A stretch of DNA of 64,000 nt from an uncultured Dokdonia sp. (lineage in GTDB: Bacteria; Bacteroidota; Bacteroidia; Flavobacteriales; Flavobacteriaceae), in the NCBI GenBank assembly GCA_938002835.1, contig CALKZS010000007.1:20061-84060 (forward strand). The letters run 5' to 3'. Shown here piece by piece: positions 42,813 to 44,525 of this stretch. The first letter of the stretch is position 1; the number at the start of each line of letters is the position of its first letter. The notes under the pieces were generated by a model. It was not told where the DNA came from and ran no database searches. It saw only the letters and a list, made by a program, of their open reading frames with translations. A program made the translations under genes and the position numbers.

Positions 42813-42965
42813 ATATAAAATAAAATTAAACAAAGAATTTATTCTGTTTTTAAAACATTTAAATATAGTTAGATAATGTCTCTAGTTAACTCATCTTTGT
42901 TATTAATTTTTATAGCTAAGTTCTAATTTAGATATGTATTATTTTTGTTTTAAACTTCAAAAGAT

Positions 42966-43440
42966 ATGATACCCGATGATTTTAAGGTTTTTTTTGTGAA
43001 TTAAGATGTTTCCACTCAGCAGGAAATAGTTTCTAGTTTACTAGCTATCTCTACTGAGTTCTCATCTTTAATAGAACCTATAGAAGATAAAGTTGTTACT
43101 TGCCCTCATTGTCATAGCACTCGTATTCGTGCCAATGGTAAACTCAAAGAAGTACAACGCTATTTATGTAATGGATGCAAAAAGAATTTTAGTGAGACTA
43201 CTGGTAAATTCTGGTATAATATCAAAAGGAAAGATAAGATAACTCGCTATTTGTTTTTCCTATTGTCAGGGTACAGCAACGAGCAGTAGAAAAAGTCTAT
43301 CACGTGCAAAATGTTAATAATATGGATATGAGACTAAGAAAATTCTTAGCTTCATTTAACGGATTAGCTACCAGATACTTACAGAACTATCTGAATTGGT
43401 TCTTAGTACTTAAAAAGGACAATATCCAAAATTTTGTTTA
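42966..43440 (+). pseudogene. IS1595/ISXO2-like transposase remnant with catalytic core deleted
   Basis: MIPDDFKVFFVN*DVSTQQEIVSSLLAIS...TCPHCHSTRIRANGKLKEVQRYLCNGCKKNFSETTGKFWYN..., then a jump to AVEKVYHVQNVNNMDMRLRKFLASFNGLATRYLQNYLNWFLVLKKD. Confidence 0.82.
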
Positions 43441-43515: not shown

Positions 43516-43695
43516 ATGATTAAAAACGTTTTAAGTCTAGAAGGTGTAAACACTTTAAACAAGAGCGAACAAAAAAATATTAATGGCGGGTTCTTTGGAT
43601 TTAATACCTGTAACAGAAACTCAGATTGTTACACACCCTATTTAGGTGTAGGAGATGTTTTCTGTAACTCCTATAGTCGTTGTCAGTATTATTAG
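43516..43695 (+). CDS. Small GG-leader (bacteriocin/RiPP-like) cysteine-rich peptide precursor, 59 aa; absent from ORF track
   Basis: MIKNVLSLEGVNTLNKSEQKNINGG | FFGFNTCNRNSDCYTPYLGVGDVFCNSYSRCQYY*; leader LNKxEQKxINGG and two CX5C motifs. Confidence 0.8.
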   Translation: MIKNVLSLEGVNTLNKSEQKNINGGFFGFNTCNRNSDCYTPYLGVGDVFCNSYSRCQYY

Positions 43696-43708
43696 TATTA
43701 AATTTATT

Positions 43709-43740
43709 AGGAAGTGAAGTAGTATAATTTCACTTCCTAA
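43709..43740. terminator. Hairpin between convergent GG-peptide gene and mazG
   Basis: TTAGGAAGTGAAGTAGTATAATTTCACTTCCTAA. Confidence 0.7.
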
Positions 43741-43742
43741 TA

Positions 43743-44525
43743 TTACAATTGCTTTGCCTCTTCCCAAAAAATATCCATTTCTTTAAGTGTCATATCAGAT
43801 AGCTCTTTATTGAGTTCTTTTGCTTTACTTTCTAGATATTGAAAGCGTTTTATAAACTTTTTATTTGTTCGTTCTAAGGCACTTTCTGGATCTATTTTTA
43901 AGAAACGTGCATAGTTAATCATAGAGAAAAGAACATCACCAAACTCGGCTTCCATTTTTTCTTGATTCTTTGCTGCTACTTCTTCTTGTAACTCAGCAAG
44001 CTCTTCTTTTACCTTTTCAAAAACCTGTTGGGGTTCTTCCCAATCAAAACCTACTCCTGCTACTTTATCTTGTATTCTACTTGCTTTTACCATTGCTGGC
44101 AAGCTTCTAGGCACGCCTTCTAATACAGACTTCTTCCCCTCTTTAAGTTTGAGTTTTTCCCAATTGCGTTCTACTTCCTTTGCATCTGCCACATCTATAT
44201 CTCCATAAATATGTGGGTGGCGTGAGATGAGCTTTTCTGAAATAGAGGTTGCCACATCTGCAATATCAAAATCATTGGTTTCAGACCCTATTTTTGCATA
44301 AAAAACAATGTGTAATAACAAGTCCCCTAATTCTTTTTTTATTTCTTCAAGGTCATTATCAAGTATTGCATCTCCTAGCTCGTAGGTTTCTTCTATAGTG
44401 AGATGTCTTAAACTTTGCATTGTTTGTTTTCTATCCCACGGACACTCTACACGAAGCTCATCCATAATGGTGAGTAATCTATCTATTGCGGCTAGTTGTT
44501 GCTTTCTTGTATTCATAATTTTCAT
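43743..44525 (-). CDS. mazG: Nucleoside triphosphate pyrophosphohydrolase MazG
   Basis: LRVECPWDRKQTMQSLRHLTIEETYELGDAI...ELGDLLLHIVFYA. Confidence 0.95.
   Translation of the reverse strand: MKIMNTRKQQLAAIDRLLTIMDELRVECPWDRKQTMQSLRHLTIEETYELGDAILDNDLEEIKKELGDLLLHIVFYAKIGSETNDFDIADVATSISEKLISRHPHIYGDIDVADAKEVERNWEKLKLKEGKKSVLEGVPRSLPAMVKASRIQDKVAGVGFDWEEPQQVFEKVKEELAELQEEVAAKNQEKMEAEFGDVLFSMINYARFLKIDPESALERTNKKFIKRFQYLESKAKELNKELSDMTLKEMDIFWEEAKQL

Follow-up and report, generated by a model that had tools for sequence, protein, structure and literature searches.

A double-glycine leader peptide with four cysteines in an uncultured Dokdonia: a probable survivor of an eroding disulfide-peptide system

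The genome of an uncultured Dokdonia sp. contains a small gene that appears to encode the precursor of an exported cysteine-rich peptide, with no modifying enzyme and no immunity gene beside it. How such a precursor could be processed, what its cysteines do and whether it still belongs to a working system are the questions raised by this locus, which lies within the 64,000-nucleotide stretch of DNA that was analysed (the window). It is regarded here as fairly probable that the gene is a surviving member of a bacteroidetocin-like system of exported disulfide peptides, processed in trans, and that this system is eroding in the host. The gene and its surroundings are arranged as follows:

42902..43417, plus strand: internally deleted InsA/IS1595-type transposase element with a zinc ribbon; a neighbour outside the peptide unit
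43516..43695, plus strand: GG-leader cysteine peptide gene, 59 aa plus stop
43516..43590, plus strand: leader, 25 aa, MIKNVLSLEGVNTLNKSEQKNINGG; a cut is expected after GG, from the leader profile and alignments
43591..43692, plus strand: core, 34 aa, FFGFNTCNRNSDCYTPYLGVGDVFCNSYSRCQYY, from the 21-sequence alignment
43705..43742, no strand assigned: hairpin with a perfect 16-bp stem; probable terminator shared with the convergent mazG gene
43743..44525, minus strand: MazG nucleoside triphosphate pyrophosphohydrolase; a convergent, unrelated neighbour

The peptide gene and its family

The open reading frame, its translation, the double-glycine (GG) site and the arrangement of the four cysteines in two C-x5-C units, as described in an earlier note on this DNA, are confirmed from the sequence; the cysteine codons start at 43609, 43627, 43663 and 43681. 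The note had also recognised CN-x-x-S-x-C twice, which is true of the window peptide but is not a feature of the family, since a 21-sequence alignment of the core type conserves only the first C-x5-C and shows a variable spacing in the second. Invariant positions in this alignment are L14, Q19, G24 and G25 in the leader and C32, D37, C38, G44, G46, D47, C50 and C56 in the core, the invariant residues of the core type including all four cysteines and no serine or threonine. The window copy has its four cysteines, GG site, start and stop intact; it alone has GVGD in place of GPGD, and its leader carries a two-residue insertion, changes that would be compatible with relaxed constraint. Upstream of the gene, matches to sigma-70-type promoters are near chance level, and the consensus Bacteroidota promoter TTTG-N-TAnnTTTG is matched only partially.

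Relatives that conserve both the leader and the cysteines, for which the earlier note had proposed a search, were found: the whole 59 aa match solitary open reading frames in other Dokdonia over their full length (E = 6e-12 to 7e-11), and a genome scan places the same core type at 20 loci in all in Dokdonia, Aquimarina and Tenacibaculum. In these relatives, selection on the core type is strongly purifying, with pS/pN values of 0.45/0.04, 0.35/0.03 and 0.32/0.05 in pairs of close relatives. A leader profile was built from 32 family leaders, and the window leader matches it at E = 2.1e-11 in the genome, being itself one of the 32. It is scarcely credible that the reading frame arose by chance and has no coding function; it is short and its matches to curated families all lie below cut-off, but the full-length homologues in other species, the invariant cysteines and the leader-profile match speak against such an origin.

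Counted at E <= 5, matches to the leader profile number 45-57 apiece in four Dokdonia genomes and 2-7 in three others, the remaining Dokdonia genomes having zero or weak matches only; in the host genome there are six, three of them at E <= 0.001. Most leader peptides in the two genomes read in detail are solitary and scattered, with differing Cys-rich cores, and a solitary position is thus the normal arrangement. The description of the window gene as an orphan holds in that local maturation genes are missing, but not in the sense of an oddity, since Dokdonia relatives carry dozens of solitary copies. Across the Dokdonia genomes (G300-G315), the size of the leader-peptide repertoire follows genome size: the four genomes with 45-57 peptides measure 4.8-5.5 Mb, and those of 2.6-3.6 Mb have none or few.

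Searches of Pfam, NCBIfam and PDB sequences with the peptide and its core type returned nothing above cut-off, and scans of family members likewise stayed below the Pfam and NCBIfam cut-offs throughout. The NCBIfam model NF047798 (leader_Chryseo, "bacteriocin-like protein") represents a comparable short flavobacterial GG-type leader. The window peptide scores 12.7 bits against a cut-off of 23.5, with the last 12 leader residues covering 12 of the 18 model positions, and is outside NF047798 by that model's own cut-off. The leader profile and the core-type alignment place the window gene in a flavobacterial family in which the GG leader is conserved and the Cys-rich cores vary, and within it in one core type with four invariant cysteines; this core type is new, having no above-cut-off match to any curated family.

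Within a genus, the core type commonly shares its flanking genes: an rsmD-like gene at most Aquimarina loci, a dihydrolipoyl-dehydrogenase-like gene at most Tenacibaculum loci and a UvrA-side locus in Dokdonia, names that were read from sequence and not from a family search. The location of the window peptide differs from these shared loci, its neighbours being a DUF6048 protein, the IS remnant and mazG. A conserved site beside mazG was rejected, as the peptide is absent at 16 of 16 other Dokdonia mazG loci. The transposase remnant that had been noticed upstream is real, and the element occurs in the genome several times, as copies or remnants. Its homology ends ~100 bp before the peptide, which is therefore no part of the element, and the peptide as an IS passenger was discarded on this ground and because the core type occurs elsewhere without the element. 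The internally deleted element is contiguous at two sites, in the window and on contig C31 (L208), the two copies being 92.5% identical over 519 bp; this recurrence suggests a non-autonomous, MITE-like derivative. The downstream hairpin is likewise present and strong (-22.6 kcal/mol, z = -6.4) and sits between the convergent peptide gene and mazG; a consensus terminator scan found no canonical T-run there and called no terminator.

Disulfide formation and export

The core had been suggested to form two disulfide or thioether loops. Because its four cysteines are invariant and no serine or threonine is, disulfides are favoured over thioethers, and because the family also tracks a VKOR-thioredoxin oxidoreductase, two disulfides are the most likely bonds in the window core. 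AlphaFold2, run on a 21-row alignment, predicts short strands with a mean pLDDT of 62 and values of 68-78 for the core blocks. In Foldseek, all nine top-ranking PDB matches are cystine-rich miniproteins, including seven squash-inhibitor types, at E values of about 1 or worse. Min-23 has a cystine-stabilised sheet with two disulfides (PMC2659701), which the C-x5-C...C-x5-C spacing would suit, implying a pairing of Cys1 with Cys3 and of Cys2 with Cys4; such a pairing in a small cystine-stabilised sheet is put forward as a hypothesis from modelling. The likeness to the squash-inhibitor sheet (EETI-II, MCoTI-II, Min-23; PMC2659701) lies in the C-x5-C spacing at both ends, but the window core would have two disulfides only, the searches found no sequence homology and the structural matches are non-significant; at most, the models would point to a resemblance of shape. 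Kinship with potassium-channel toxins, raised by two matches to a relative's core (E about 1.5), was rejected and ascribed to a coincidence of cysteine spacing.

In several other genera, the peptide genes share clusters with those for three larger proteins: a C39-peptidase ABC exporter (~730 aa), an HlyD protein (~430 aa) and a fusion protein of ~535 aa, a membrane oxidoreductase that combines a C39-like, a VKOR and a thioredoxin domain. All 13 fusions compared conserve their VKOR cysteines and both CxxC motifs, while alignment of these 13 proteins shows that the catalytic Cys is missing from the C39-like domain, with no His or Asp equivalents seen. The dead C39 domain may thus dock the leader, and the VKOR-thioredoxin part may make the disulfides. 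The leader family and the long-form fusion occur together in 29 of 300 genomes of the family, six having the leader only (the host genome among them), 12 the fusion only and 253 neither (Fisher p = 5e-25, genomes counted without phylogenetic correction), and leaders are present in all seven Dokdonia genomes with the fusion. Searches of open-access literature, which includes few subscription journals, found no description of this fusion as a bacteriocin or RiPP maturase. The fusion cluster is often found beside surE-prc-permease genes in other species, and at the Dokdonia fusion loci (L109, L201) there are also TPR-CHAT (caspase-like) genes, together with a sigma/anti-sigma-like pair. C39-ABC and HlyD genes occur in Dokdonia in yet another setting (L102:7394-9662, L103:4700-6971), which contains two unassigned proteins of 317 and 370 aa and no Lan enzymes, and is possibly another peptide-modifying system.

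As the earlier note had stated, the window contains no C39 exporter. The search elsewhere in the genome that it had recommended located a single C39 domain, on contig C120 (PF03412, E = 3e-32), so that processing of the peptide would be in trans. All three catalytic residues (Cys, His, Asp) are retained in the C120 exporter, which shares 69-71% identity with the VKOR-linked exporters and ~80% with other Dokdonia Lan-operon exporters. It sits in a class I lanthipeptide operon, presumably of the pinensin type, that comprises LanC, a split LanB, the C39-ABC protein and HlyD (L035:630-8956). In D. pacifica, ~50 leaders coexist with a single exporter of this kind, a Lan-operon copy that is 80% identical to that of the host; thus, one exporter plausibly serves all of them in trans. 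Cleavage and export of the window peptide in trans by the C120 exporter is plausible from these comparisons. Two features of GG-leader (C39-processed) exported peptides are present: the window peptide has a leader that ends in GG with the family pattern, and its genome encodes a C39 exporter with intact catalytic residues.

The position of the only C39 exporter next to a complete LanB/LanC set also allows the window peptide to be seen as a lanthipeptide that is modified in trans by the C120 enzymes, and the prochlorosins, in which dispersed precursors are served by a single lanthipeptide synthetase, offer a precedent. The peptide shares a C39 exporter, of the same exporter family, and a GG cleavage site with the class I lanthipeptides of Bacteroidota, but it has another leader, no modifying enzyme at its locus, and neither the conserved Ser/Thr plus Cys nor the local Lan-type leader of that class. 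Precursors at homologous Lan operons have the leader MKKxLKELTLxKEVISNLxLxKxEGG and the core CCPTxxALNSCPPPGxxCY. Since they differ in both leader and core, lanthionines are not expected in the window peptide. In addition, all Cys but zero Ser/Thr are conserved in its core type and its leader family tracks the oxidoreductase instead, which leaves modification in trans by LanB/LanC quite improbable. The precursor of the C120 operon itself lacks an ATG start, has a shorter leader than its counterparts in other Dokdonia operons, and looks degraded.

State of the system in the host genome

No VKOR domain was found in the host genome, an assembly that is 93% complete in 196 contigs and from which a fusion located elsewhere could have been missed. 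The syntenic locus (contig C28) is assembled without a break and holds neither fusion nor peptide; what remains there is a TPR-CHAT gene together with sigma-factor and anti-sigma-like genes, all related to their counterparts in a fusion-bearing Dokdonia genome (G313). Judging from these retained neighbours, the fusion appears to have been lost rather than never present. The three other family members traced in the host genome are all broken or altered, by a premature stop codon within the core (C45), a leader frameshift at a poly-A run that could be a sequencing error (C125) and loss of the GG site (C111), whereas other Dokdonia have intact nearest relatives of all three. No intact member other than the window gene was found in the host genome, and the system seems to be decaying, with this gene as its last intact copy.

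The same observations can be taken to mean that the window gene is itself a relic, the reading frame of which is intact because too little time has passed, and which is now neither processed nor used. The nonsense, frameshift and GG-site mutations of the other members, the missing VKOR fusion together with a syntenic locus reduced to sigma, anti-sigma-like and TPR-CHAT genes, and the status of the window copy as the only GVGD variant of the family are consistent with such a relic. Yet the window copy has kept its cysteines, GG site, start and stop, and the C39 exporter has retained its catalytic residues. A relic is therefore considered unlikely, although with some weight, and a surviving member of an eroding system is the preferred reading.

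Proposed mechanism, function and significance

The closest tested precedent in Bacteroidota is provided by the bacteroidetocins, which have a GG leader and a ~40-aa four-Cys core with disulfides supported by gel shift, are encoded in a four-gene locus with a 5-TM protein, a thiol oxidoreductase and a C39-peptidase ABC transporter, and kill Bacteroidales (Coyne et al. 2019, PMC6671954). The window peptide has the same kind of four-Cys core after a GG site. However, its leader comprises 25 aa, compared with 15-16 aa in bacteroidetocins, and its neighbours (DUF6048 protein, IS remnant, mazG) form no such four-gene locus. Its core type has the pattern C-x5-C...GPGD...C...C and is encoded by solitary, multi-copy genes, unlike bacteroidetocins, and the related oxidoreductase is the C39-like-VKOR-thioredoxin fusion that is seemingly absent from the host. 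The window peptide is no bacteroidetocin, a distinction drawn from leader length and locus and not from the cores.

In the proposed mechanism, the window gene would yield the precursor of a small exported peptide, and the C39 peptidase domain of the C120 exporter would cut it after GG. Together with its HlyD partner, the exporter would then carry the 34-aa core out of the cell in trans, and this core would fold with two disulfides, probably Cys1-Cys3 and Cys2-Cys4. In relatives, the membrane oxidoreductase with its C39-like leader-docking domain, VKOR and thioredoxin would form these bonds; in the host, which appears to have lost it, air or some other oxidant would be needed for folding. In the least certain step, the product may act outside the cell as a bacteroidetocin-like antagonistic peptide. 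Antagonism would be the leading guess for the function of the core type, at less than an even chance; far more secure are its place in the family, its processing at GG and the disulfide nature of its bonds. An arms-race toxin would not usually show such strong purifying selection or such stable synteny, which count against antagonism.

Purifying selection in relatives and the lack of an adjacent immunity gene would also fit a secreted signal, with a membrane receptor that senses the core. Some GG peptides (L110, L111, L112, L040, L130, L146) have as neighbours large TPR proteins that end in an AraC-type HTH_18 domain, each a possible peptide-receptor pair, and some family members would pair with such TPR-TM-HTH_18 regulators. 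TPR-HTH_18 proteins account for 5/167 genes within two genes of the peptides, compared with 2/452 further off (p = 0.018). This comparison is limited by its small numbers and by selection, since the loci had been picked for the peptides they contain and the TPR-HTH proteins used as references had come to light as peptide neighbours. Most peptides, including that of the window, have no TPR-HTH neighbour, and a signalling role is rather doubtful. TPR-HTH receptor pairing as a general rule was rejected, as it concerns a minority of peptides only.

The single window gene is a modest finding, and the system behind it is the interesting part. It is tentatively suggested, as a possibility short of an even chance, that marine flavobacteria use a scattered repertoire of up to ~50 diverse cysteine miniproteins, served by one shared C39 exporter, which may even be borrowed from a lanthipeptide operon, and by a dedicated oxidase that recognises the leader through a dead C39 domain, and that the host lineage is losing this system. 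The leader may then serve for two recognition events, one with an active C39 protease for export and one with an inactive C39-like domain, fused to the VKOR-thioredoxin oxidase, for disulfide formation. The window gene points to a wealth of secreted cysteine peptides in marine flavobacteria, most of them uncatalogued. If the tentative reading is true, they would constitute a combinatorial secreted-miniprotein system, and the window gene would be a survivor in a lineage that is losing it.
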